DNA of 37,683 nucleotides from Candidatus Roizmanbacteria bacterium GW2011_GWC1_37_12 (GTDB taxonomy: Bacteria > Patescibacteriota > Microgenomatia > UBA1406 > GWC2-37-13): the NCBI GenBank assembly GCA_000991135.1, contig LBST01000014.1, positions 1 to 37,683 of the forward strand, written 5' to 3'. Below the pieces are notes generated by a model that was not told the origin of the DNA, ran no database searches, and was given only the letters and a program-made list of their open reading frames with translations. Numbering within the stretch: position 1 is the stretch's first letter; each line of letters begins with the position of its first letter. Made by a program: the position numbers and the translations under genes. Shown here piece after piece: positions 1 through 36,516 of the stretch.

Positions 1-5095
<5,095 letters not shown>

Positions 5096-5096
5096 T

Positions 5097-5651
5097 ATGA
5101 ATAAAAACCGCCAATCGATCAGATTAAAAAATTATGATTATTCAAAATCAGGATTATATTTTGTCACAATTTGTACGGAAAACAGGGAATGTTTGTTGGG
5201 AGAAATTGTTGTAGGGGTCGGGCGTGACCGACCCTCATCCATAAAATGTGACCGACCCGTTTCAATGATTTTAAATCAATACGGAAAAATCATTGAAAAC
5301 GTATGGATATCATTACCCAAACATCATCCGGTTGAATTGGACACGTTTCAAATAATGCCAAATCACGTACATTTTATTTTACATATTGTTTCGGGTGCAC
5401 GACCGATGATTACGGGCGCGTCACGCCGCGCCCCTACAGGCACGTTGGGTTTCGTCGTTGGAATGTTCAAAACGGAATGCACAAAACAAATCAATAAATT
5501 ACAAAATACACCTGGTCAAAAAATATTTCAACGCAATTATTACGAACATATAATTCGCACCGAAAACGATTTAAATAAAATACGTGAATATATTATCAAT
5601 AATCCAACAATGTGGGATCGGGATCGAAATAATCCAAAAAATACAATATGA
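5097..5651 (+). CDS. REP-associated tyrosine transposase (RAYT, IS200-like Y1 HUH superfamily)
   Basis: An 184-residue Y1-type transposase. The N-terminus SIRLKNYDYSKSGLYFVTIC, the metal-binding HUH motif (HVH, residues 90/92, in MPNHVHFIL) and the nucleophile region RNYYEHIIR (Tyr148/149) are all present, so it looks intact. Known RAYTs bind and nick REP hairpins. I chose the ATG at 5097, which gives the family-typical start and lies 1 nt after the fibre stop; a TTG at 5085 would overlap that gene. The 3' end overlaps the next gene by 4 nt (ATGA), an unusually tight fit for a transposase. The gene itself contains two REP-like hairpins (5215-5234 and 5414-5433), the second encoding the ASRRAPT stretch common in RAYTs. 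Palindromes of similar design lie in neighbouring genes, which suggests they are its non-autonomous partners (inference). Confidence 0.9.
   Translation: MNKNRQSIRLKNYDYSKSGLYFVTICTENRECLLGEIVVGVGRDRPSSIKCDRPVSMILNQYGKIIENVWISLPKHHPVELDTFQIMPNHVHFILHIVSGARPMITGASRRAPTGTLGFVVGMFKTECTKQINKLQNTPGQKIFQRNYYEHIIRTENDLNKIREYIINNPTMWDRDRNNPKNTI
5215..5234 (+). repeat. REP-like hairpin inside RAYT gene
   Basis: GGGTCGG, a 6-nt loop, then CCGACCC, preceded by GTAG. The second arm sequence GACCGACCC recurs about 15 nt downstream. It is translated in frame (GVGRDRPS). Confidence 0.75.
5414..5433 (+). repeat. REP-like hairpin inside RAYT gene (GGGCGCG/CGCGCCC)
   Basis: Seven-base-pair GC arms with a 6-nt loop (TCACGC), flanked by TAC and CTAC. 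It encodes part of the ASRRAPT segment of the transposase. Its layout matches the palindromes at 5683-5712, 11865-11894 and 12096-12118. Confidence 0.8.
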
Positions 5652-8600
5652 AAAAAACATATCGATACATAAAACATCCATCTGTAAGGGCGATTCATGA
5701 ATCGCCCCTACAAATAATCTGGTCGAATATTGCCAGACGCAAAATAATGCTATTTTCGGTGATTTTTTTAATCATCACCCTGCCTATCTTCTTTTTGGTA
5801 ACAAAATATCAATCAAAAGTTCAGGCGGCGTGGATGAATGATAGCTGGGCTTACAGAACTGGCTTGACAATTGGTAATACAGGAAGTGCAGACAGTGATA
5901 AAAAGGTCAAATTCGATATTGATACGGCAACTCTGATTACGGCCGGAAAGATGCAGGCCGACTGTGGTGATTCAAGATTTACTGATATCAACGGACGTGC
6001 GTTAAAATATTTTATTGACACAGCAGGCGGCACATGCAATACAAATTCAACAGATTACTACGTATTAACACCAACTATAAATTCTGGTAATACTGTTCTT
6101 TACCACTACTACGGAAATCCTTCGGCGCAAAATGGCACCGTTTCCGCCCAATTTTCCCAAGCGACTTTTTCTCCGACTTCCGGACCGTCTGCGGGATCCG
6201 AAGAAAACGGCACCGCCCCGATCTCTTACTGGAAGTTTGATGAGGGATATGGAACGAACGCGAATGATTCTACACAAAACGCCAAAAATGGGACTTTAAC
6301 TGGAGTTCCAGAATGGAAACCGGAATCAGAATGTATCAGCGGTAAATGTCTATTTCTTGATGGAACTAATACTGATTATGTTTCCATTAGTGATAGTGGT
6401 ACGACTGATCCTCTTGATTTGGGAACAAAAAGTTTTACCGTTTCCTACTGGGGAAAAGCTATTGACTATACTTATCCAAAATCACTCTTTCCAATTAAAG
6501 ACGGTAGCGCTCCATATACTTCTGGAGCAGGCCATGAAGGATGGTCAATCTCTGACAATTATTCATCTACCACTGTACGTGTTGCAATTAATGATGGCAC
6601 TAACATGGTCTCAAGTGATATTACTTTAAATTCAGGTAGTCAACCTCCCGATCTTAAAAATAAATGGACTCACTATTCTTTTGTTTTCGATCGCACTAAT
6701 AATCTCGTATATATTTATATAAACGGCATTCAACAAAATAATACATTAAACATATCTTCCGTCACTGGTTCTATTTCTAATACAACCGCTCTACTGATTG
6801 GATATGGAACAGGCTGGAAAACTCATGGTTATATGGATGAATTCAAAATCTACCCCTACGCTCGCACGGCGGCTCAAATTAAATCTGACTTTGCTTCAAA
6901 AGGCTCTGGATCGGTAAAAGGCACAGCTGCTAGTTTAGGATCCAACATCAAAAATCTATCATCTCTTTCCGATGGGTTAGTTGGATATTGGAAGATGGAT
7001 GAGTCAACTACTAATACTTGTACAGGTGGAGTTAACGATTCTTGCGACTCTTCCGGTAACGCCAGCAACGGCGCTTGGAATGGTAATACTACTTCTGCCG
7101 CTGGAAAATTTGGAAATTCTACCACTTATGATGGAATTGATGATTACACTTCGGTGACAGAAAACTCTGCCTGGGAGTTTTCTTCATCTTTTACCTTATC
7201 AACTTGGGTTTATTCCAACGGTACTCAAATTGCTTACGCTGGCATTGTTGCTAAAGATCTATCTAGCAGTATGGGGAATTATGGTTTCTTTTACGATTCT
7301 GGTGGTACTATTGTAAGATTTGGTTTTTATGGAACTAACTCTGTCCAATCAGAAGTTGATACTCAAACCGCTATTCCCACAGGACAATGGGTTCATCTTA
7401 TTGGAGTTTTTGATGATGTAAATAATACTTTGTATATATATCAAAACGGTGAACTAAAAGAAAAAGATACTACCATTACAAATACGCCTTCTACAAATGA
7501 TAACTCTTTAATATTTGGTTCAAGACAGGCTGGTTTATCATCATATGAATTTAACGGCAAAATCGACGAAGCTCGCATATACAACCGCGCCCTCTCCCCC
7601 AAAGAAGTCCGCGATCTGTATAGCTGGGCGCCGGGACCGGCCGGATACTGGAACTTTGATGAAAAAACCGGTGCGTCGGTCAATGATATCAGTGGCAACG
7701 GATACACCGGCACTTGGAATGGGACAGGTGCAAGTCATTGGACGACCGGTAAATTTGGTTCGGCCGGAAATTTTAACGGCACTGATGACTATATTTCTCA
7801 AGGCACCGGTCCAACGATCGTTAACTCTGTTTCCTTTTGGACGTATCCGACCTCAACGACTAATTATTTTGTTGACTTGAACGGATCGGCATATATTTCC
7901 GCTACCTCCGGAACATTATCTGCAACCGGATTTACTTCTCCAACTATTTACGTTAACGGCGTCGTTTCTTCTACTTTAGCTGCTAATCAATGGCAATATA
8001 TAACTGTCACGACCGCAACTAATCTAAATGCTTCCGCCCTTAATTTTGGCAAAATTTCCACTAATTATTTAACCGGCAAACTTGACGAAGTGAGGCTGTA
8101 CAACTACGCCCGGACGCAAAAACAAATCGTCGAAGACATGAACGCCGGCCACCCCGTCGGTGGCTCCCCAGTCGGATCACAACTTGGATATTGGAAGTTT
8201 GATGAGGGGTATGGAGGCACCGCAAACGATACCGTTGCTAACCAGAATTTAACAATAACCAGTGCTTCTTGGACAAATTCTGGTAAATTTAATAAGGCCC
8301 TTAATTTTGATAACGGCGTGGCCGGATCAGAAGCATATTATAATGATGTGACAAGCAGTAAATATGATCTAACTAATGATTTTTCTTTTGGCGCTTGGGT
8401 TTACCGGACCAATTCTCCTTCAAACCAAGCCAGAATTATTAGTAAGGGAGATAAATATTTATTATTTACAACCACTAACAATATTCCCATCTGCTATATG
8501 AACGGTTTAAGTGCAACTAGTTTAACCGCCACATCCGCTCTTCCAGTTAATCAATGGATATATGTCTTATGTACATATAAAGATAATGCCCGAAAACTTT

Positions 8601-11535: not shown

Positions 11536-13548
11536 ATGAAAAAAATTTTTCTAAATATCATTTTATTTCTTTTTCCCTTTTTTTTTCTTAATGTAACTCA
11601 AGAATATTTTGTCACCAATAAATTATATCTTCTTGGCTTCGGTTCACTTTTCCTCCTACTCATATCAGGAGTAGAATTGCTCCTGACAAAAAAAATCTCT
11701 TGGCAGAAAAACCCTTTTGACAACCTTATTCTTCTTTTTTTGACGTCCGTGGCTGTATCAACTTTGTTTTCTTCACCCAACAAAATCCAGGCGCTTTTAA
11801 ATCCAAATTTTGGATTGGCGATGATGATCTCTTTGGCGGTTTTGTATTTTTATTTGTCTCGGAATGTACGGGCGATTCATGAATCGCTCCTACAATCTAG
11901 GATCTATCATCTAGGATCTATCATCTTGTCTATTATTACAATCATTTTCTATTTCCAACCCTTCAAAAACGTTGCTCTTCCCCAAAATCTTGCCTTTCTA
12001 AAAAATCCCGGATTTACACCGGTTGGCTCTCAATTGGATTTGGCGATCTTGTTGGGATTTTTCATAATTATTGGCATTGTAAATATATTGAAAAAGGGCG
12101 AGAAGACCTCGCCCCTACGATCTATCATCTATCATCTAGGGTCTATCATCTTGCCTCTAACCGCCCTATTTCTAACGATTTATTCATTAATTAAACCTGT
12201 CGGTACAGACGTGATTAATCACGTCTCTACGTTGATTTTGCCGCCATTCCGCCTATCCTGGTTTGCCGCTCTTGAAATTCTAAAAAACCCCGCCTCGGCC
12301 ATAATTGGCATCGGACCTGATAATTTTTCCGCTATTTTTACCCGGGTGAAAGACTTTGCTTATAATCAATCTCCGCTATGGCAAATCAATTCCTTTAATG
12401 TTTCACGTTCGGCGATTCTGCAAATCCTTACCGAAACCGGAATATTTGGTTTATTGACGTTTGGTTTGTTGATTTTTAACGCAATTAAACAATTGGTAAA
12501 GGGCGACCACAAGGGATCGCCCCTACAATTATTTTTATTTCTTTATTTGATCATTTGTTTATTAATTTTTCCTCCTTCTTTAATTCTCTGGTTTTTGTTT
12601 TTCATTTTAATTGCTGAATTATCTAAAATCTATAATCTAGGATCTAACATCAATAAACAGATTATTGATCTTTCCGATCTTCTTCCGATCTGCGTTGGTA
12701 TTGTTATTATTTCCCTAGGCCTAATCGGTGCTTCCGGATATTTTCTCGGCCGCACCTATGCCTCTGAATATTTTTTCAAAAAATCAATTGATGGCATAGC
12801 TCTAAACAACGCTAAATTAGTTTATGACAACCAAAGACAGGCAATTATTTTAAACCCATATATTGAAAGATTTAGAAGCAGTTTTGCCCAGACTAATATT
12901 CTGATTGCCAATAATTTAGCTTTAAAAAATAAAGACGGAAAAATAACAGAGCAGGATCGTCAAACCATTACCCAGGCAATCCAGGCGGGAATTTCTGAAG
13001 GAAAAGTAGTTGTTTCTTTAAATCCTCAAAAAGCCGGGAACTGGCAGAGCCTCGCATCAATTTATGCAAATATTATCAATGCCGCCGCCGGCGCCGACGT
13101 CTGGACGATTTCCGCCTTTCAACGGGCAATTTTAGCTGACCCACAAAATCCGGTTTATCGAGTCAGTTTGGGCGGGGTCTATTATTCTCAAAATAAATAT
13201 GACGATGCTCTAAGATTTTTTGAACAGGCGATTTCCTTAAAACCTGATTGGCCTAATGCCAGTTATAACTATGCCTGGGCAAATTTTCAGAAAAAAAATT
13301 ATCCCCAGGCCGTCAATGCCTTGCAGGCTACCATAAAACTAATCGACCCGAAACTAAATAAAGCCGATTATGATAAAGCGCTGAAAGAATTGGAAGAGTT
13401 CAAAAAAATGCTTCCAAATGAAGACGTCCAGGTCGACCAATCGGGAGAAAAAAACCAGTCGGGCAGTTTGAATTTACCTACACCGCCTACAACTCAAATC
13501 AGCCCGAAGCTGGAGCTACCAAAGGAAGCATCGCCGGAAGCCAAATAA
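11536..13548 (+). CDS. O-antigen ligase/polymerase-like polytopic membrane protein with C-terminal TPRs
   Basis: 670 residues. About ten or more hydrophobic segments occupy residues 1-420. The Wzy_C-like region around nt 12265-12470 (IGIGPDNFSAIF, then SRSAILQILTETGIFGLL) matches the periplasmic-loop and E-x-G motif of O-antigen ligases. After a final TM (~nt 12680-12750) comes a soluble tail with TPRs (YRVSLGGVYYSQNKYDDALRFF, then NASYNYAWANFQKKNYPQAV). In known relatives the enzyme transfers lipid-linked glycans to an acceptor, and TPR forms have been linked to protein or surface-polymer glycosylation; here this is inference. Four palindromes (11865, 12096, 12207, 12501) and three heptamer stretches (11895-11929, 12120-12154, ~12627-12650) are translated in loops between hydrophobic segments, the densest repeat load in the window. 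Confidence 0.82.
   Translation: MKKIFLNIILFLFPFFFLNVTQEYFVTNKLYLLGFGSLFLLLISGVELLLTKKISWQKNPFDNLILLFLTSVAVSTLFSSPNKIQALLNPNFGLAMMISLAVLYFYLSRNVRAIHESLLQSRIYHLGSIILSIITIIFYFQPFKNVALPQNLAFLKNPGFTPVGSQLDLAILLGFFIIIGIVNILKKGEKTSPLRSIIYHLGSIILPLTALFLTIYSLIKPVGTDVINHVSTLILPPFRLSWFAALEILKNPASAIIGIGPDNFSAIFTRVKDFAYNQSPLWQINSFNVSRSAILQILTETGIFGLLTFGLLIFNAIKQLVKGDHKGSPLQLFLFLYLIICLLIFPPSLILWFLFFILIAELSKIYNLGSNINKQIIDLSDLLPICVGIVIISLGLIGASGYFLGRTYASEYFFKKSIDGIALNNAKLVYDNQRQAIILNPYIERFRSSFAQTNILIANNLALKNKDGKITEQDRQTITQAIQAGISEGKVVVSLNPQKAGNWQSLASIYANIINAAAGADVWTISAFQRAILADPQNPVYRVSLGGVYYSQNKYDDALRFFEQAISLKPDWPNASYNYAWANFQKKNYPQAVNALQATIKLIDPKLNKADYDKALKELEEFKKMLPNEDVQVDQSGEKNQSGSLNLPTPPTTQISPKLELPKEASPEAK
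11865..11929 (+). repeat. Composite repeat: REP-like palindrome followed directly by a heptamer array, in frame
   Basis: The palindrome (GGGCGATTCATGAATCGCTC, one mismatch from the 5683 copy) ends in CTACA and is followed without a gap by five heptamers (ATCTAGG, ATCTATC, ATCTAGG, ATCTATC, ATCTTGT). Together they encode VRAIHESLLQ and then SRIYHLGSIIL. Confidence 0.9.
12096..12154 (+). repeat. Second composite palindrome plus heptamer array in the ligase gene
   Basis: GGGCGAG-5 nt-CTCGCCC plus CTAC is followed by ATCTATC, ATCTATC, ATCTAGG, GTCTATC, ATCTTGC. It encodes GEKTSPLRSIIYHLGSIIL. It has the same order and sense as the composite at 11865-11929. Confidence 0.88.
12207..12226. repeat. 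20-bp perfect palindrome (AGACGTGATT/AATCACGTCT) in the ligase gene
   Basis: Flanked by GTAC and CTAC as in the other REP-like copies but with a different core. It is translated as TDVINHVS. The core difference shows that palindromes of one design but different sequence are present. Confidence 0.85.
12501..12524. repeat. REP-like imperfect palindrome (GGGCGA/TCGCCC) in the ligase gene
   Basis: Six-base arms with a 10-nt loop, followed by CCTAC. It is translated as GDHKGSPLQ. Confidence 0.75.
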
Positions 13549-14636: not shown

Positions 14637-15873
14637 TCGCTGACGTTATCCTTTCGATCGCGACTTCAAAAGCCGCCTGCTTCAAAGGCATTTTCTTGGT
14701 AACTGATTTTTCCCAGATCGATTCAAAAGCCCTGACTATCATCTCTTTTAATTTCTGATTGACTTCACTCTCGCTCCACCAATAGCCGGCTTTACCTTGG
14801 ACCCATTCTAGGTAAGAGACAGTAACGCCGCCGGAATTGGCAAGGACATCGGGAATGATAACAACGCCTTTTTTACTCAAAAAAAGATAGGCTTCTTCAG
14901 TAAGCGGACCATTGGCCATTTCTAAGATCACTTTGGCTTTTACTTTGGCAGCATTTTTTTCCGAGACGACATTTTCCAAGGCCGCCGGAACCAAGATGTC
15001 AACCGGCAAAGTCAATAGCTCCTCATTGGTAATCTTTTTACTAGAGTAGCCTGAAACGACGCCCTTTTTCTTTTTGTAAGCCAAGACTGCCACCGGATCC
15101 AGACCGTCTTTATCATAGACGCCTCCCCGCGAATCAGAGATCGCCACTACTTTAAAACCGGCCTCATGGGCTAGTTTAGCGAAATAATAACCGACGTTGC
15201 CAAATCCTTGGACGGCTATAGTTAAAGACGAAAATTTCGGCATCGAGCCTTTAATTTTCTCAAGTAATGCCTGTAAAACGAAAAGTCCGCCTCGTCCGGT
15301 CGCTTCAGTTCTTCCCAAACTCCCGCCTATCGACACTGGCTTACCGGTAAACGTTGCCGGCGATTTATAACCTTTTATTTTTTGATATTCGTCAATCATC
15401 CATGACATGATCTCTGGAGTTGTATTGACATCAGGCGCCGGAACATCAACGTCTTCTCCGATGACGTGAGTAATGCGAGCGGCAAAAGCTCGTGACAGTC
15501 TTTCCAATTCGGTTTTGGAAAGTTTTTTTGGGTCAACAGTAATTCCGCCTTTTCCGCCGCCATAAGGCAAGCCGGCAACGGCGCATTTAATCGACATTAA
15601 AGTAGCCAAAGCTTGGACTTCTTCTCTTACCGTTTCCGGGTGAAATCTAATGCCTCCTTTATAAGGCCCAAGAGCACTGTTGTGTTGGATCCTCCAACCT
15701 CGAAAAACCTTTTTCTTGCCGTTATCCATGGTCACGGTCAAGGAAAACTCGTGAGCAAATTCAGGCTCGATCACCCGCTTAATCATCTCTTCGTCTAACT
15801 TCATCTTTTCGGCGGTTTTTCTGATTAAAGCTTGTGCCGACTCAAGCATCTTTTTTCCTGGAGCATTGTCCAT
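14629..15873 (-). CDS. gdhA: Glutamate dehydrogenase (Glu/Leu/Phe/Val dehydrogenase family)
   Basis: 414 residues, the usual length for the hexameric family. It interconverts glutamate and 2-oxoglutarate plus ammonia with NAD(P). Substrate-domain motifs: GWRIQHNSALGPYKGGIRFH (residues ~59-78) and GLPYGGGKGG with catalytic Lys108. The Rossmann segment is VAVQGFGNVGYYFAKLAHEAG (here VQGFGNVG), followed by the late motifs EMANGP and PDVLANSGGVTVSYLEW. All key residues are present. It lies 17 nt downstream of trxB and is probably co-transcribed with csoR-trxB. In a CPR organism it may serve amino-acid catabolism or redox balance (inference). Confidence 0.95.
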   Translation of the reverse strand: MDNAPGKKMLESAQALIRKTAEKMKLDEEMIKRVIEPEFAHEFSLTVTMDNGKKKVFRGWRIQHNSALGPYKGGIRFHPETVREEVQALATLMSIKCAVAGLPYGGGKGGITVDPKKLSKTELERLSRAFAARITHVIGEDVDVPAPDVNTTPEIMSWMIDEYQKIKGYKSPATFTGKPVSIGGSLGRTEATGRGGLFVLQALLEKIKGSMPKFSSLTIAVQGFGNVGYYFAKLAHEAGFKVVAISDSRGGVYDKDGLDPVAVLAYKKKKGVVSGYSSKKITNEELLTLPVDILVPAALENVVSEKNAAKVKAKVILEMANGPLTEEAYLFLSKKGVVIIPDVLANSGGVTVSYLEWVQGKAGYWWSESEVNQKLKEMIVRAFESIWEKSVTKKMPLKQAAFEVAIERITSAMV

Positions 15874-15890: not shown

Positions 15891-16847
15891 TTATAATTTT
15901 TCCAAAAATCGTTCAACTTCTAATGCCGCTGCCACTCCCATCCCAACAGCTGTTGCCGCCTGACGATACTTATGGTCAACGCAGTCCCCCGCAGCAAAAA
16001 CTCCTGGGACTGATGTCATATAATCTTTGACTAAAATATATCCTTTTTTATCAAGCTTAATATGATTTTTGAAGATGTCTGTGTCAGGCTTGTGACCAAT
16101 AGCTATGAAGACGCCGTCTAAAGTTAGATGGTAGATGTCAGATGATAGATGTTTGATTTCATTGTTTTTTTCTAAAATCTGAGATCTAGGATCTAAAATC
16201 TTTATCTTAATCCCTTCCACCTTTTTTCCCCCTACTATTTCTTCAACTTCACTATTAAAAATCACTTCAATCTTTGGATTATTTAATACTCTATCTTGCA
16301 TGATTTTTGACGCTCTAAATTCGGCACGTCGGTGAATAATATATACCTTTTTGGCGAACTTTGTCAAGGTCAATGCTTCTTCCATAGCTGTATCTCCTCC
16401 GCCGATTACAGCGACGGTTTTTTCTTTAAAAAAGAATCCATCACAAGTAGCGCATGCTGACACTCCTTTACCCCGTAAACGAGTTTCAGATGGAAGATTT
16501 AACCAAAGCGCCTTTGCGCCAGTGGCAATAATGACGGATTTTGATTGTAGGGACAATTTATGAATTGTCCCTACGGCAAACGGTTTTTTAGAAAAATCCA
16601 CTTTAACGACATTTTCATCGATAAACCTAACGCCAAACTTCTCTGCATGCTTCCTCATCTTTAAAATTAACTCCGGACCCATTATCGACTCAAACCCAGG
16701 GTAGTTTTCGACTTCAGTTGTCAGAATGAGCTGTCCCCCGGGTGGAGATCCGGCAATAACCAAAGGATTTAGTCCTGCCCGGGCATTATAAATTGAGGCA
16801 GCCAATCCAGCCGGCCCACCACCTATAATTACAACATTTTCAATCAT
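15891..16847 (-). CDS. trxB: Thioredoxin reductase (FAD/NADPH)
   Basis: 318 residues. FAD-binding GGGPAG at residues 9-14, redox pair CATC at 132-135, NADPH Rossmann VIGGGDTAMEEA, HRRAEFRAS for the NADPH phosphate, and the C-terminal FAD motif VPGVFAAGD. It reduces thioredoxin using NADPH. Two repeat-derived stretches are in frame: residues ~93-102 (VGTIHKLSLQ) from a palindrome, and ~216-242 from two inverted heptamer arrays, giving LDPRSQILE and KHLSSDIYHL between the NADPH domain and GVFIAIG. Homologues normally have only a few residues there. The start overlaps the csoR stop by 4 nt (ATGA), implying coupled translation. Confidence 0.95.
   Translation of the reverse strand: MIENVVIIGGGPAGLAASIYNARAGLNPLVIAGSPPGGQLILTTEVENYPGFESIMGPELILKMRKHAEKFGVRFIDENVVKVDFSKKPFAVGTIHKLSLQSKSVIIATGAKALWLNLPSETRLRGKGVSACATCDGFFFKEKTVAVIGGGDTAMEEALTLTKFAKKVYIIHRRAEFRASKIMQDRVLNNPKIEVIFNSEVEEIVGGKKVEGIKIKILDPRSQILEKNNEIKHLSSDIYHLTLDGVFIAIGHKPDTDIFKNHIKLDKKGYILVKDYMTSVPGVFAAGDCVDHKYRQAATAVGMGVAAALEVERFLEKL
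16124..16198. repeat. Inverted heptamer arrays inside trxB
   Basis: On the plus strand one arm is TTAGATG, GTAGATG, TCAGATG, ATAGATG (16124-16151) and the other is TCTAAAA, TCTGAGA, TCTAGGA, TCTAAAA (16171-16198). The arms are in inverted sense and could form a hairpin. Both are translated, as SSDIYHL and ILDPRSQIL. Confidence 0.85.
16547..16574. repeat. REP-like palindrome inside trxB
   Basis: GTAGGGACAATT, a 4-nt loop, then AATTGTCCCTAC. It has the same GTAGGG/CCCTAC ends as the palindromes of the plus-strand surface genes but a different core. It is translated as VGTIHKLSL. Confidence 0.9.
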
Positions 16848-24978: not shown

Positions 24979-25857
24979 ATGAAAAAAATAACTCTTGCCT
25001 ATTTTGGTTCTCCTGATTTCTCCGCCAAATTTTTGGAAAAACTATTGATTGATATTTCGATTAAACGTTTAATCGAAGTAAAACTCGTCATCACCCAACC
25101 AGATAGGCCCGTCGGAAGAAAACAAATCCTTACCCCTACTCCCGTTAAACAAGTAGCTCTAAAATACGGTTTAAAAGTTTTAGAAATTGGGAATTTTTTA
25201 GGTAAATTAGATCAATTAGAAATTAGAAATTTAGACTTATGTCTAATCTATTTTTACGGCCAAATTATTCCAAAAGATATTCTACTATTGCCAAAATACG
25301 GTTTTTGGAATATTCATTTTTCCCTCCTCCCAAAATACCGCGGACCAGCTCCGGCTGTTTGGTCTCTAATTAACGGTGATACAAAAACTGGTGTTTCTCT
25401 AGTGCAAACCGATGAAAAACTCGACCATGGAGATCTGATTGCCCAAAAAGAGGTAGGTATTAATCCCCAAGAAACAAAAATAGCCTTAGAAGAAAGACTT
25501 GATAATATAAGTTATGACCTTTTTAAAAAAGAAGCAAAAAATCTCCTCGACGGAAAAATTAATTTGACTCCGCAAAACCATGAGCTATCTACATATGCCG
25601 GATTTCCGACGAAACAAGACGGCTATATCGAAATTTCAAATTTCAAATTTCAAATTTCAAATTCCCCGAAAAAGTTATTTAACCTTTTTCGGGGCCTATA
25701 TCCTTGGCCAGGCATTTGGACCATCCTCCCCAACGGCAAACGGCTAAAAATCACTAATATGGAATTAGGAAAGATTAAGCGCGTACAATTAGAAGGCAAA
25801 ACCGAAGTAGACTTTGAAACGTTTAATAAAGCTTATAAGGTGTTTGGAAATTCTTGA
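24979..25857 (+). CDS. fmt: Methionyl-tRNA formyltransferase
   Basis: 292 residues, slightly short for the family (~310). It formylates Met-tRNA(fMet) from 10-formyl-THF for initiation. FGSPDFSA opens the Rossmann core. The catalytic trio matches Asn111 and His113 (NIHFSLLPKYRG) and Asp149 (LDHGD). The C-terminal OB-type domain begins near YPWPGIWT. Between DGYIEI and LFNLFRG a heptamer array (25631-25665) adds SNFKFQISNS, an insertion of roughly eight to ten residues at the domain junction. The 3' end overlaps the convergent beta-CA-like gene by 25 bp. The predicted mRNA is leaderless, and its product itself supports initiation, especially where no SD is present. Confidence 0.95.
   Translation: MKKITLAYFGSPDFSAKFLEKLLIDISIKRLIEVKLVITQPDRPVGRKQILTPTPVKQVALKYGLKVLEIGNFLGKLDQLEIRNLDLCLIYFYGQIIPKDILLLPKYGFWNIHFSLLPKYRGPAPAVWSLINGDTKTGVSLVQTDEKLDHGDLIAQKEVGINPQETKIALEERLDNISYDLFKKEAKNLLDGKINLTPQNHELSTYAGFPTKQDGYIEISNFKFQISNSPKKLFNLFRGLYPWPGIWTILPNGKRLKITNMELGKIKRVQLEGKTEVDFETFNKAYKVFGNS
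25631..25665 (+). repeat. Heptamer array (AAATTTC x4 plus AAATTCC) in fmt
   Basis: Four perfect AAATTTC units and one variant, read as ISNFKFQISN. The unit is itself partly palindromic (AAATTT), so one array can fold back. Confidence 0.95.
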
Positions 25858-28417: not shown

Positions 28418-29186
28418 ATAAACTCCCGACTAAATATCCAACCATCGCCGAGGCCATGCCGATGATAGTCATTTCGACGCCTGATTTAAAAAGGTGGCGG
28501 CCGATCGTCTGCTTCGCTTTGTAGTGGCCGACAAAAAATAGAGTTAAAGCAGAAGCGACTAGAGAAATGGCAATTGCCGTTTTGATCGGCCAAAATAAAA
28601 ACGGTAAAAGAGGAATAAATGATCCAACTAAGGCAGAAATTCCAACGATAATTCCGGCAGGGAACGCATCTTTCCTGTTAACTTTTTCAAGTTTCAACTC
28701 CTGCTCCATCATAATTTCCAACCAGACTTTTTTGTTGGAGCAGATTTTATCGACGACTTCGTCAAGGACTTTTCCTTCAAATCCGTAGTTTTCATACAAG
28801 GCTCTAATTTCTTCTCTTTCTCCATCAGGGACGTTATCAATCTCCCATTTTTCCCGCTCATATTCTGACTGATAGTAATCGGCCTCTGCCAGTTTTGACG
28901 TGTAGGCGACTGCCGCCATCGAAATCGATTCGGCAAAAGTCGCTGCCAGCCCGGCGACGATGATAATCTTTGAAGAAGACGTTGCCGCCGCCACACCCAA
29001 AATAACGCCAAGAACATTTACCAGTCCATCCTGTCCGCCCAAAATAATTTCCGGAAGATTAAAAGATTTTAAGTGGTGTTCGTGGTGGTGAAATGAATGA
29101 TGAATGGCGTCAACAGTATGGCTTTTTTTAATAATTTCAACGTCTCCTTTCAAAAACCCTTGCCTTGCCTGATCAACTCGACTCAT
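28407..29186 (-). CDS. VIT1/CCC1-family iron/manganese transporter
   Basis: 259 residues. A His-rich N-terminus (HHSFHHHEHH) precedes TM1 with the family motif GGQDGLVNVLGVILGVAAA (here GGQDGLVNV). TM2 carries AESISMAAVAYTSK. A cytosolic helical metal-binding segment (~residues 105-170, many Glu) is followed by three more TMs (~175-195, 200-222, 238-257). VIT/CCC1 proteins export Fe2+/Mn2+ from the cytosol. The ATG overlaps the tgt stop by 4 nt, so it is the last gene of a queA-tgt-transporter operon; no functional link between queuosine and metal export is known to me. Confidence 0.88.
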   Translation of the reverse strand: MSRVDQARQGFLKGDVEIIKKSHTVDAIHHSFHHHEHHLKSFNLPEIILGGQDGLVNVLGVILGVAAATSSSKIIIVAGLAATFAESISMAAVAYTSKLAEADYYQSEYEREKWEIDNVPDGEREEIRALYENYGFEGKVLDEVVDKICSNKKVWLEIMMEQELKLEKVNRKDAFPAGIIVGISALVGSFIPLLPFLFWPIKTAIAISLVASALTLFFVGHYKAKQTIGRHLFKSGVEMTIIGMASAMVGYLVGSLFKV

Positions 29187-30484
29187 ATTAAATCTCTCTT
29201 TATTAACTCTCTAATTTTCTCAAATAATTTTTCCATTGTCCAAAGATTATGATATGTTGCCAAAGTATATCCAAGAATCTCTCTTTGTTTAAACAAATGA
29301 TGAAGATATGACTTGGTAAAATTTATACAGACGTAACAATCACAGTTTTCATCGACTTTTTCAAGATTGTTTTTATAGATCGTTTTGGTTATGTCGATTT
29401 CATTTGAAAGCGAAGATACCAAATTTTTTTCACTTTCGGGGTAGGGACCCCGCTGTGATAAAAAATCTTGGTATCGAGCTTTATACAGAGTCCCCATGCG
29501 AGCAAGCCTCGTCGGCTCGACGCAATCAAAAGTATCAATTCCATACTTTACCAAATCTATAATGTCATCTATCTGTCCAACTCCCAGAAGATGCACCGGT
29601 CGGTCCTTAAGAAGATAATCACTCACCCATTTAACCTGCTCCCGCATTTCTTTTTTCGACTCCCCAACCGACACTCCTCCAATCGCCACCCCCGGAGTGT
29701 TTTGGGCCAGGACAACCTCGGCCGATTGTCTCCGTAAATCTTCAAAAGTCCCTCCTTGAATTACTCCGTACAAATACTGTAAAGGCGAAGACAACAAATT
29801 TCGTTGCCGAGCCTTATATATTATGCAACTTTTTAACCATTCATGCGTTCTCTTCATCGCCTTTTCCGCATATTCATGACTCGCCGGATAATAAGTACAC
29901 TCGTCAAACGCCATATTGATATCAGCACCAATTTTTGCCTGATATTCCATCGACTTCTCCGGAGTAAACTCAATTAATTTTCCATCAAACGTCGACCGAA
30001 ACCTCACCCCGTCTTCAGAAATTTTTACTAGCAATGGATGTTCGTCACCTCGAACATCTGCTTTTCTTGTTTGGTTAAGAGACGAGGGGGAGAAATTTTT
30101 TCGCTTTCGAGGGGACCACGAAGTGGTGAGACTCTCGTGCGACAAAAATTTCGACCCCGAGTCTCTTTTATCACGAGCCAATGAAAAAACCTGGAACCCT
30201 CCTGAATCACTCATCAAAGGAATATCTAACCCCGAATATTTATGGATCCCTGCTGCTTTTTGGATAATATCCACTCCCGGATGAGTCACTAGATGGTAAG
30301 TATTAACGAAGGCCGTTTGAACTCCGATTTCTCTCACCAACTCCGGCGTCAATGCTTTTACAGTCCCCTTGGTCGCAACTGGCACAAACCCCGGCGTCTT
30401 AATTATTCCGTGATCTGTCTTAATCTCGCCGAGCCGGGCTTTGGATTTTGAAGAATGATGTTTTACTTTGAAGAAATTATTCAT
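29183..30484 (-). CDS. tgt: tRNA-guanine(34) transglycosylase, with two hairpin-derived insertions
   Basis: 433 residues against ~370-385 for the family. It exchanges G34 for a queuine precursor in tRNAs with GUN anticodons. Motifs: SDSGGFQVF (catalytic Asp93), YGVIQGG, GGVSVGE, FDCVEPTRLARMGTLY (nucleophile Asp320), zinc site Cys381-x-Cys383-x2-Cys386 with His412. The core is intact. About 45 extra residues (103-148) follow DSGGFQVFSL, and ~20 more (~338-360) precede the zinc domain; each coincides with a hairpin element (30077-30168 and 29415-29475). It overlaps queA and the transporter gene by 4 nt each, so the operon is translationally coupled. Confidence 0.93.
   Translation of the reverse strand: MNNFFKVKHHSSKSKARLGEIKTDHGIIKTPGFVPVATKGTVKALTPELVREIGVQTAFVNTYHLVTHPGVDIIQKAAGIHKYSGLDIPLMSDSGGFQVFSLARDKRDSGSKFLSHESLTTSWSPRKRKNFSPSSLNQTRKADVRGDEHPLLVKISEDGVRFRSTFDGKLIEFTPEKSMEYQAKIGADINMAFDECTYYPASHEYAEKAMKRTHEWLKSCIIYKARQRNLLSSPLQYLYGVIQGGTFEDLRRQSAEVVLAQNTPGVAIGGVSVGESKKEMREQVKWVSDYLLKDRPVHLLGVGQIDDIIDLVKYGIDTFDCVEPTRLARMGTLYKARYQDFLSQRGPYPESEKNLVSSLSNEIDITKTIYKNNLEKVDENCDCYVCINFTKSYLHHLFKQREILGYTLATYHNLWTMEKLFEKIRELIKRDLI
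29415..29475. repeat. Hairpin element (T-run/CAC family), copy in tgt 3' part
   Basis: Outer arms GATACCAA/TTGGTATC are perfect, then ATTTTTTTCAC/GTGATAAAAAAT, then CGGGG-TAGGGA-CCCCG. Shares TTTTTTCACTTTCG with the copies at 30077 and 30724. It is translated as part of LSQRGPYPESEKNLVSS. Confidence 0.88.
30077..30168. repeat. Large hairpin element inserted in tgt
   Basis: Nested arms: AAGAGAC/GTCTCTT, GGGG/CCCC, GAAATTTTT/AAAAATTTC, TCGC/GCGA, and at the tip ACCAC-GAA-GTGGT. The inner ~56 nt match the queA copy (30728-30783) except for paired changes that keep the stems intact. It is fully translated within Tgt residues ~106-137. Confidence 0.9.
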
Positions 30485-31599
30485 AAAATTAACATTGCGT
30501 CACCAAAAGAATAAAAGCGAAAATTTTCCCTAATAGCAACATTATACAAGTCAACTAAACTTCGTTTCGACTTTTTAAACTGCAAAAAGGCTTCAACCAA
30601 CATCATGAGAGATGATTTTGGCAGATGAAAGTTAGTAATTAAAACATCAACCATCTTAAAATCATAAGGAGGGAAAATAAAAAGATCTGTTTTATCAAAA
30701 ACACTGTGAGGAGGAGACGTGTGAAAATTTTTCACTTTCGAGGGGACCGCGAAGCGGTGAGACTCTCGTGTGACAAAATTTTTATACGCCGACTCCAAAG
30801 TCCTCGTCACCGTCGTTCCCACCGCCACTAACTTTTTTCCTTTCGACTTCATTATATTAATATAATGTAGTGACTCCTCAAGAATTTCATAATATTCTTC
30901 GTGGAGTTTTTTCTCTGTAAGATTTTCTTCAGTCAATGGTGCAAATGTTCCTAGACCAACGTGCAAAGTAATAAAATATCTTTTTATTCCCTTTTCATCT
31001 AACTTTTCAAAAACTCTATCTGTAAAGTGCAAGGAGGCAGTCGGCGCAGCTGATGACGCAAACCGGGCGCCGACTGGTGCCCGGGCAAAAATCGTCTGAT
31101 ATTTTTCTATTAGTTCATCTCTTTTTAGAGGCGTTTTTTTCAGATAAAGAGGGATCGGCATATTGCCATACTTTTCCAGGATCTGAAAAAGCTTTGCTTT
31201 TGAAAATGAATACTCGAGAACAAAAATGTGTTCGTCTTGGCTTATTGCCTTTACAAACTCTCCATTTGGGAAAAATAATTTTTCACCGACGTTAATCTTT
31301 CTATCAGCCATTGCTTGAATAGATTCCTCTCTTCCAGAGGGGGTGTTAACTAAAAATAAAATAATTACTTTTCCTCCATTTTCTTTCTTCATCTCCACCC
31401 TCGCCGGAAGAACTTTTGTATTGTTTAACACCAAAAATGAATTTTTAGGAAGATATCTGTCGAGATTATAAAAATGATCAAAAACTATCTCATCAGTTTT
31501 CGTATCATAGACAAAAAGCCTTGATGAATCACGCGGGACAGTTGGAGTAAGGGCTAAATTGCTTTTTGGCAATATATAATCATAAGTTTTCAAATTCAC
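30481..31599 (-). CDS. queA: S-adenosylmethionine:tRNA ribosyltransferase-isomerase
   Basis: 372 residues (family ~340-350). It transfers and isomerises ribose from SAM onto preQ1 in tRNA to make epoxyqueuosine, the step after tgt. Motifs: N-terminal YDYILPKSNLAL and PRDSSRL, LVLNNTKVLPARV, PTASLHFTD, ITLHVGLGTFAPL, and ITNFHLPKSSLMMLV. The start is GTG at 31599, 9 nt after the preceding gene's stop. A hairpin element (30724-30785) adds about 25 residues (FVTRESHRFAVPSK and following) before the DLFIFPPYDF segment. It overlaps tgt by 4 nt. Confidence 0.94.
   Translation of the reverse strand: MNLKTYDYILPKSNLALTPTVPRDSSRLFVYDTKTDEIVFDHFYNLDRYLPKNSFLVLNNTKVLPARVEMKKENGGKVIILFLVNTPSGREESIQAMADRKINVGEKLFFPNGEFVKAISQDEHIFVLEYSFSKAKLFQILEKYGNMPIPLYLKKTPLKRDELIEKYQTIFARAPVGARFASSAAPTASLHFTDRVFEKLDEKGIKRYFITLHVGLGTFAPLTEENLTEKKLHEEYYEILEESLHYINIMKSKGKKLVAVGTTVTRTLESAYKNFVTRESHRFAVPSKVKNFHTSPPHSVFDKTDLFIFPPYDFKMVDVLITNFHLPKSSLMMLVEAFLQFKKSKRSLVDLYNVAIRENFRFYSFGDAMLIL
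30724..30785. repeat. Hairpin element inserted in queA, related to the tgt copy
   Basis: AAAATTTTTCAC / GTGTGACAAAATTTTT outer arms, ACCGC-GAA-GCGGT tip. Compared with the tgt copy, CGC-to-CAC in one arm is matched by GCG-to-GTG in the other, and ACCAC/GTGGT becomes ACCGC/GCGGT, i.e. two compensated changes. Confidence 0.9.
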
Positions 31600-34527: not shown

Positions 34528-34632
34528 AATGACAAACATCAAATAACAATTGAATAATAAATATCAAATTTACAAAAATTAAACTTTTGTAATTTGAAAT
34601 TCAATTGTGAATTTGTCATTTGTCATTTGTGA
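34528..34632. repeat. Inverted heptamer-phase element between folC and thyA
   Basis: A region largely in 7-nt phase: left units AATGACA, AACATCA, AATAACA; right units TTTGTCA, TTTGTCA, TTTGTGA. CAATTGAAT and ATTCAATTG pair between them. The right arm encodes the last folC residues (TNDK) and its TGA stop; the left arm forms the thyA upstream region. There is nothing else in this 95-bp gap. Confidence 0.82.
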
Positions 34633-35887
34633 TTATTTTATAAATTTCTCCTAACAAATACAACGAACCCGTAATAACGACTGTGTCTTTTGTTTCTTTC
34701 AAAATTGTCTCAAAAGCTTTTTTTGAGTCAGCGATAATTTTATAATTTTTAAAACCTAATTTTTCCAAGGCTCTCCCTATTTCTTTCGGTTTTTCGGAAA
34801 GATTGATCAAGTCTTGATTATCAACAAAAAAGCTCGTGATGGTGATTTTTGAAGCCAAAGGAACAATGTAACGAAGCATGTTCTGATAGTCTTTGCCTTT
34901 TTTAAAGGCGATTAAAAAATGGAATTTTTTTCCTTGGTATTTTGATTTTAAAGCAGCGGTAAAAGATTCCATTTTCAAAGGATTATGAGCGCCGTCTAGA
35001 ATAACAGTTCTATCCCTGATCTTCTTGATATCAAATCGTCCGGCAAAATGAGCTTGCCGGAAAACCTGCTTGATCTTAGTTTTGGCATTTTTAAAACTGT
35101 CTCTTTTGGCTAAAAGTTCTAAAGTCTTGAGTGCCAGACCGGCATTTTCCATTTGATAATCGCCTAATAAAGATAGATTAAGATGAACTTTTTTAACAAA
35201 ATCCAACTTGGCTTGTCTATCGTCTGCGACTTCTTTTATAACTTTTTTTATTTCAACCGACTGATCAAGCGCAATCGCCTGACTATCATGATTAATAATC
35301 GTGGCTTTTTGATAGGTAATTTTTTTTAGAGTCTTTCCCAATATCGCCATGTGGTCAAAACCGATCCTTGTCAAAACTGAAACCTTGTCTCTCCTATCAA
35401 CAACATTGGTCGAGTCATACAAACCGCCTAGACCCGTTTCCATCACTGCATAGTCAACCTTTTTTTTCCAAAAAATATAGAATGCCAAACCGACCAAAAC
35501 CTCAAAATAACTCAAGTCGCCAAATTTTGATTCTTCTACTTGATTAACAAACGGAATAATCTGGTTTAAGTAATAGATAAACTCTTTTTTACCGATGATT
35601 TTGTTATTTATTTGAAATCTTTCTCTCACATCCGTTAAGTGAGGTGAAAGATGGAGTCCGACCTTAAAACCATGAGCGGTTAAAAGAGAACTGATCAGAT
35701 AACAAGTGGAGCCTTTCCCGGCTGTGCCGGCGATGTGAATTACTTTTAATTTATTCTGCGGAGAACCAAAGAGCTTAAGAAAATATTTTTCTTTCTTGAG
35801 TCCTAGCTCACCTTGAAATATCTGTTTTGATCCTTGGCGGACGTGAGAATTAAGATATTTTTCCGCTTGAACAAAACTATAAATCAT
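34616..35887 (-). CDS. folC: Folylpolyglutamate synthase / dihydrofolate synthase
   Basis: 423 residues, full length. It adds glutamates to folates (and possibly makes dihydrofolate), retaining cofactor for ThyA, FolA and Fmt. Mur-ligase-type motifs: VIHIAGTAGKGST P-loop (~residues 49-61), SPHLTDVRERFQIN, METGLGGLYDSTN, TRIGFDHMAILGKT with QKATI, then ILDGAHNP in the C-terminal domain. All intact. The last four codons and stop lie in a heptamer repeat element. The order dcd-like, folC, thyA, folA on one strand forms a folate and thymidylate supply cluster. Confidence 0.94.
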   Translation of the reverse strand: MIYSFVQAEKYLNSHVRQGSKQIFQGELGLKKEKYFLKLFGSPQNKLKVIHIAGTAGKGSTCYLISSLLTAHGFKVGLHLSPHLTDVRERFQINNKIIGKKEFIYYLNQIIPFVNQVEESKFGDLSYFEVLVGLAFYIFWKKKVDYAVMETGLGGLYDSTNVVDRRDKVSVLTRIGFDHMAILGKTLKKITYQKATIINHDSQAIALDQSVEIKKVIKEVADDRQAKLDFVKKVHLNLSLLGDYQMENAGLALKTLELLAKRDSFKNAKTKIKQVFRQAHFAGRFDIKKIRDRTVILDGAHNPLKMESFTAALKSKYQGKKFHFLIAFKKGKDYQNMLRYIVPLASKITITSFFVDNQDLINLSEKPKEIGRALEKLGFKNYKIIADSKKAFETILKETKDTVVITGSLYLLGEIYKIITNDK

Positions 35888-35902
35888 GAAGTATAGAAGT
35901 GA

Positions 35903-35943
35903 GGGTATTAAATTTTTTTCACTGATAAAAAATTTCGATACCC
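35903..35943. repeat. Hairpin element (T-run/CAC family) between dcd-like gene and folC
   Basis: GGGTAT/ATACCC ends and AAATTTTTT/AAAAAATTT arms around TCAC-TGA. It resembles a minimal copy of the tgt/queA hairpin family lacking the GC-rich tip. It begins 7 nt after the upstream gene's stop and could act as a weak terminator or 3'-end stabiliser. Confidence 0.8.
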
Positions 35944-35949
35944 GAACTT

Positions 35950-36516
35950 TTAAATTTGCTTTTCTCTCCTCTTAGTTGTTACTCGTCCGCCTTGCCATTG
36001 ACCCTGATATTGATTTCCGCCTCCTTTGACTTCAAAAAACTGGGCATGAGCAAAACGACATCCTAACTCCATTGTCACGGGGATCGGCCCGGCATTGTAA
36101 CAGGCAAAAGTCACTTTGCCTTTATATCCTGGCGCCACGTTTCCTGTTCGAATAATCAATCCCGATCTGAACGTCGTCGTTCTCGGCTTGAAATTTACCG
36201 TCAAGTTTAAAGGAATATTAAACACTTCGATTGAAGATAACAAATAGAATTCTCCTGGCTTTATAGTTACTTTTAACTTTTGAGTTTCAGTTTTGACTTT
36301 TGATTTTTGACTTTTGATTTCAATTATTGTCTCTATCTGTGGCGTTTCTCTATGCGTCACCCCAAGGAATGCTTTTCCTCCAACTATCTTATGAACTTCT
36401 CCCAATCTTATATCAAACCCTGCTCCTTCGGGAGTGGTTAATTCTCTTTTGTCTAAATTCTCAACCAGTTTCTTTGTCTTTACTAACTGCAGTAATTTCT
36501 TAGGTCCTAAAATCAT
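35950..36516 (-). CDS. dCTP deaminase/dUTPase-fold protein lacking the usual acidic catalytic residues
   Basis: 188 residues. Fold motifs of the Dcd family: EGAGFDIRLG, KPGEFYLLSSIEVFNIPLNLT, KPRTTTFRSGLI (for GRSSLARLGL), GNVAPGYKGKVTFACYNAG, CRFAHAQFFEV, and YQGQWQGG. In E. coli Dcd the catalytic Glu138 lies in the segment VLEFYNSG; the aligned residue here is Ala138 (TFACYNAG). The Asp of IDPG, used by dUTPases, is Ala128. The deaminase reaction is therefore doubtful; a nucleotide-binding or altered-activity role is possible. Residues ~64-86 (EIKSQKSKVKTETQKLKV) come from a heptamer array (36269-36320). The -10 directly follows the upstream gene's stop. Confidence 0.8.
   Translation of the reverse strand: MILGPKKLLQLVKTKKLVENLDKRELTTPEGAGFDIRLGEVHKIVGGKAFLGVTHRETPQIETIIEIKSQKSKVKTETQKLKVTIKPGEFYLLSSIEVFNIPLNLTVNFKPRTTTFRSGLIIRTGNVAPGYKGKVTFACYNAGPIPVTMELGCRFAHAQFFEVKGGGNQYQGQWQGGRVTTKRREKQI
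36269..36320. repeat. Heptamer array (TTTTGAC-type) in the dcd-like gene
   Basis: Seven-nt-phased units, on the coding strand ATCAAAA, GTCAAAA, ATCAAAA, GTCAAAA and degenerate followers. Translated as a Lys/Gln/Ser-rich strand (KSQKSKVKTETQ) in a loop of the beta-barrel fold. Confidence 0.9.

Follow-up and report, generated by a model that had tools for sequence, protein, structure and literature searches.

A family of palindromic repeats in frame inside tgt, queA and other genes of Roizmanbacteria-like Patescibacteria: a probable mobile element

Why do two neighbouring housekeeping genes carry similar hairpins within their coding sequence, and why do these hairpins differ from each other by paired changes? 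The genes are tgt (queuine tRNA-ribosyltransferase, 433 aa, minus strand, 29183-30484), which hosts three inserts, and queA (372 aa, minus strand, 30481-31599), which hosts one. Both lie in the window, by which we mean the whole analysed stretch of 37,683 nt, contig 14 of a genome of 994,505 bases. A preliminary description had named four hairpin copies in the window and proposed, from paired differences between two of them, that the stem is or recently was selected despite being coding. The differences it quoted are real (CGC/GCG versus CAC/GTG, and ACCAC/GTGGT versus ACCGC/GCGGT), and the hairpins prove to be members of one repeat family whose copies are 54-102 nt long.

All four named copies are recovered by a covariance model, each on the plus strand. 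A full type A element lies antisense in tgt site 1 at 30077-30168 (model extent 30078-30165; 99.9 bits; fold z -4.2 against shuffled sequence). A second full type A element, antisense in queA in a different reading frame, is longer than first described and spans 30709-30797 (87.1 bits; the piece used for folding gave a weaker z of -2.2). Site 3 of tgt holds, antisense at 29407-29482, a 76-nt type B element with the shorter GGGGTAGGGACCCC tip (57.8 bits; z -6.8). The fourth copy, at 35896-35949, is a stripped, tipless element (36.5 bits; z -4.3) and is intergenic, between the genes at 34616-35887 and 35950-36516. Two remnants had been overlooked, both on the plus strand with boundaries set by eye: a minimal element at tgt site 2 (about 29783-29815), made of an outer stem, a GA-type loop and a short second stem, where congeners have full elements; and a remnant kept in frame within the glutamate dehydrogenase gene (about 15222-15253), where the related genome G010 has a full 78-nt type B element.

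Read on the plus strand of the window, each copy has an outer stem that varies between copies; a GA/GA or GAA/GA internal loop separates it from a second stem, and this is followed by an A/T-rich stem carrying a one-base bulge and, at the end, a tip. The tips are exchangeable and define the types: A (GAGGGGACC...GGTGAGACTC), B (GGGGTAGGGGCCCC), C (CGGTTTGTTGTTTTCCG) and tipless, with further tip types met in Tgt genes of relatives. With the loop letters left free, so that GA was not rewarded, the 3' loop is GA in 54 of 77 distinct copies and the 5' loop is GA or GAA in 52 of the 77. In a loose scan of the window for XY/XY internal loops, GA was not enriched at the threshold used. The outer stems of coding copies comprise 29 different arms in 38 copies and are still 91% paired.

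The follow-up proposed with the preliminary description, a covariance-model search of this and related genomes, was run with nine copies as input and finds 13 copies in the source genome at E<1e-5. Among congeners 16 of 19 have matches, as does one genome of the sister genus, a few of these matches being weak; about 97 copies were gathered across the source genome and its relatives. An order-wide search is positive in 8 of 43 genera and 26 of 83 genomes, all within one family of Microgenomates/Roizmanbacteria-like Patescibacteria, and in a phylum sample of 380 genomes under strict filters none of the 379 others matches. A 3' half-element pattern, aimed at finding a long gene-carrying copy, gives 63 matches in 7 genomes, against none for the reversed control pattern. 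The family matches no Rfam 15 entry at gathering score, and we located no account of such elements in Roizmanbacteria or CPR in the open literature, which does not by itself prove that none exists. Type C copies are identical at three places in one genome (G008), suggesting recent spread.

Of the 97 copies, 41 fall within open frames of 120 aa or more, 37 of them antisense and 4 sense, and at least one of the 41 (L224) may sit upstream of the true start. The hosts include tgt (three sites), queA, leuS, ileS, nadE, murD, fmt, tatD, dprA and the genes for glutamate dehydrogenase, a heavy-metal P-type ATPase, a SpoU methylase and transketolase. Every insert in queA or at one of the three tgt sites keeps the frame and lacks stops; peptides spanning inserts would be, for example, of the FLSQRGPYPESEK type. 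Type A copies are read in three antisense frames, giving SHES-, TRES- and TRVS-type peptides; the encoded peptide is therefore not the conserved thing.

Tgt had been judged about 50 residues longer than usual; it is indeed long, by about 60 residues (433 aa versus 373-374 aa in two congeners whose Tgt has little insert or none). It is not an obvious pseudogene: the reading frame is uninterrupted, and the motifs shared with Tgt enzymes of solved structure are preserved. When the two proteins are aligned to chains of known structure, conserved blocks flank the Tgt inserts, and the QueA insert shows as a gap between TLES and TDLFI. These positions are consistent with the surface loops that the earlier proposal had in mind, although AlphaFold models for Tgt of six relatives (pLDDT 35) were unusable for placement. 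The copies appear to be translated within their host proteins. Other repetitive coding sequence is also present in the window: low-complexity in-frame stretches (ISNFKFQISNS, KSQKSKVKTETQKLKV) occur in formyltransferase-like (24979-25857) and dCTP-deaminase-like (35950-36516) proteins, similar stretches fill the same tgt and queA loops in relatives, and a long open frame at 2-5095 begins with a GPTGATGVT collagen-like repeat.

In congeners the three Tgt sites and the queA site are occupied by different tips, other repeats or low-complexity sequence, or are empty. A Fitch count on the Tgt-core tree gives at least 9-10 state changes per site (tgt sites 1-3 and queA; 12-16 genomes), with states assigned by eye and some branches weakly supported. 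Same-site copies could also descend from a single old insertion that was remodelled along the way, so the figure is weakened as a count of insertion events. At tgt site 1, G000 and G002 have common arms and different tips; site 2 of G004 is reduced to GAAGACTCGTCTTC, which is a type A foot, suggesting internal deletion. Some site 1 inserts have similar residues on both flanks with no exact duplication, and no clean target-site duplication could be established, the nearest genomes being separate species. Comparison between genomes leads us to infer movement, and suggests that mobile DNA has repeatedly added and removed stretches of these housekeeping proteins.

Two rearranged copies are worth recording. 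In G013 the type B tip at tgt site 3 (L198, 1266-1365) holds a nested repeat encoding RHAQDKP. At one intergenic site (L054, L189, L075) an A and a B element stand head-to-head, and their order in G010 is the reverse of that in G009, as though an inversion of the pair had taken place there. Intergenic pairs, head-to-head and 2-13 nt apart, occur at several loci.

We then have to ask what the paired changes mean. In a MAFFT alignment of 34 type A copies, the main type, pairing is kept in 95.0% of paired cells versus 84.3 +/- 0.6% after shuffling (0/500 shuffles), 15 of 25 pairs show two-sided changes versus 8.6 in shuffles, and the covariation score is 0.335 versus 0.129. The outer and second stems covary at all ten pairs. 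Because the copies are related, the shuffles overstate independence; slid registers retain the relatedness, and in all of them pairing drops to 40-55%. Covariation is thus borne out, and is far stronger than two copies could reveal; since type A copies occupy all three antisense frames, it does not reflect protein conservation.

Selection on the stem does not follow from covariation by itself, because the hairpins of tgt and queA are probably two distinct copies rather than a single stem altered in place, and because polymerase template switching between arms also yields paired changes without selection (PMC8604942, PMC6649704). Three coding copies (tgt site 3 of G009, L076 and L213) have no GA/GA mismatch, are perfect or near-perfect palindromes there, and look like template-switching products; paired change in resident copies therefore need not mean selection. 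When the arms were tested for gapless pairing through the loop, no run reached 11, and since offsets between the arms defeat such a test, these three cases rest on our reading of the sequence. The mismatched GA/GA loop, retained in most copies, supports selection on structure, as arm-to-arm copying would erase it. Together with the covariation and the strand bias described below, this upholds part of the earlier proposal; selection on the stems in place is not proven, and the family warns against taking covariation alone as proof of a functional RNA.

GA/GA forms a tandem sheared mismatch on the GA-loop strand only. For 37 of 41 coding copies it is the strand opposite the mRNA. Among arm mismatches G-T outnumbers A-C, by 39 to 4 in intergenic copies and 26 to 13 in genes, with related copies counted as independent; this excess marks one strand as the folding strand. 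As the folding strand is opposite the mRNA, DNA is indicated rather than the gene's own RNA, and the folded active form is probably single-stranded DNA.

Based on these results, we favour, with moderate confidence, the reading that the family is a non-autonomous palindromic mobile element of one Patescibacteria family that is translated where it lands. New copies would arise from a folded single DNA strand bearing the GA/GA loop, handled by some enzyme, and survival would be limited to insertions that preserve the frame and lie in protein loops able to tolerate them, where translation would add roughly 20-35 residues. Tips would be swapped in place, probably via recombination or template switching between similar arms, and resident copies may be reduced by internal deletions to short in-frame remnants. 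Paired changes would then have two sources: the structural needs of copies that are still mobile, and template switching from arm to arm in residents.

A mobilising enzyme or autonomous copy was not found. The Y1 (IS200-like, RAYT) transposases of these genomes might mobilise the elements, which would make them REP/REPIN elements, a reading that we consider unlikely. Elements occur in 15 of 15 genus genomes with a Y1_Tnp match versus 2 of 5 without (Fisher p 0.009, Spearman 0.59, both uncorrected for phylogeny and genome completeness), and the head-to-head element pairs resemble REP dimers, which are described as head-to-head (PMC3733652). Yet around 33 Y1 loci, out to about 1.5 kb, there is no convincing element (best covariance-model match E 0.45), and a terminal GTAG at the stem foot is absent from the boundaries of the 97 copies. 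The Y1 gene of the window is followed by a classic GTAG palindrome (5684-5711) of a different family. A control search for GTAG hairpins near Y1 genes was positive at 0 of 33 loci, which gives no basis for assigning the Y1 repertoire to a repeat, and the link between Y1 genes and elements is unproven. That the family represents a new class of mobile element, a folded single DNA strand recognised via its tandem GA/GA loop, with its tip swapped in place, protein loops as its habitat and an enzyme other than a RAYT or an integron integrase, is a tentative idea, which we hold to be doubtful.

The GTAG palindromes form a second repeat family that shares the coding habit. The Y1_Tnp gene (RAYT-type) and its palindrome occupy 5085-5711 of the window, and palindromes of this type (5684-5711, about 11872, 12496-12526 and 16547-16574) lie in frame inside three other proteins, including the product of a thioredoxin-reductase-like gene (15891-16847), with the peptides VRAIHESPLQ, VRAIHESLLQ, VKGDHKGSPLQ and VGTIHKLSLQ. 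In G015, tgt site 2 (L087) has a REPIN-like GTAG double hairpin where congeners have GA-loop elements.

The hairpins could instead function where they are, as folds in mRNA, antisense RNA or DNA structure, with stems kept by selection gene by gene, which we judge improbable. Between species, same-site copies show 49 two-sided changes that keep pairing versus 22 one-sided changes that lose it, and the high pairing of such diverse coding outer stems fits this reading as well; however, same-site copies are perhaps not direct descendants of one insertion. The sites are empty or altered in relatives, the structural features lie opposite the mRNA in nearly all coding copies, and the hosts have no obvious common function, all of which speaks against function in place.

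Growth and upkeep of palindromes purely by replication template switching, with no transposition, is very improbable as a complete account: arm homogenisation of this kind has been documented for coding genes (PMC8604942) and put forward for the coding palindromes of nematomorphs (PMC6649704), and the three copies that lost the GA/GA mismatch agree with it, but arm switching cannot seed a new locus, near-identical cores stand at unrelated loci of one genome, and the conserved mismatched loop would have been erased. Removal or skipping of the segments, as with introns or with byp elements in Magnusiomyces mitochondria, a known case of short hairpins inside conserved genes (PMC6649704), is hardly credible, since removal would not demand inserts that are all in frame and stop-free, and nothing in Rfam matches.

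Rickettsia is the best-known case of palindromic DNA lying in frame within functional genes. A second bacterial group, unrelated to it, that reuses the same loops, including three variable sites in one enzyme, would show that mobile hairpins can drive changes in the length of proteins in streamlined genomes. Matching sites across about 20 species allow tests of movement, decay and the upkeep of pairing by selection versus template switching.

The nearest known kinds appear to be the Rickettsia palindromic elements (RPE; PMC10969869, PMC3733652, PMC6649704) and the REP families. Like RPEs, the elements are palindromes in frame in unrelated, functional protein-coding genes of small genomes, the protein tolerates them, and they have no known transposase. 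RPEs reportedly encode a conserved peptide and lose repeat identity with time, whereas the elements described here use three antisense frames, with no conserved peptide in a single frame among main-type copies, and keep their pairing, a common GA/GA loop and exchangeable tips; this comparison is with the published descriptions of the ten RPE families. GTAG and CGTC REPs are likewise short palindromes, mostly head-to-head intergenic dimers and some intragenic (PMC3733652), but are 20-40 bp long with stems of 5-13 bp, against 54-102 nt here, and no convincing element copy flanks a Y1 gene at the 33 loci. CGTC REPs have a terminal CGTC tag, an 8-9 bp stem and a 4-5 nt loop (PMC3733652); in our family CGTC occurs only within many type A stems, is absent in B and C, and stems and loops are far longer. 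Integron attC sites differ too, as the outer stems are AAGAC/GTCTT, AAAGC/GCTTT and others instead of GTT...AAC boxes, and copies are solitary or paired, not in a cassette array. Bacterial MITEs are similarly short, dispersed inverted repeats without a transposase gene that can yield in-frame fusions (PMC10969869), but the parent insertion sequence, shared terminal repeat and clean target duplication were not found for the elements. Finally, the coding palindromes of nematomorph mitochondria are also inverted repeats maintained in functional genes and gained or lost between species (PMC6649704); those are perfect repeats of up to 284 bp, whereas ours is a dispersed bacterial family with conserved internal loops.
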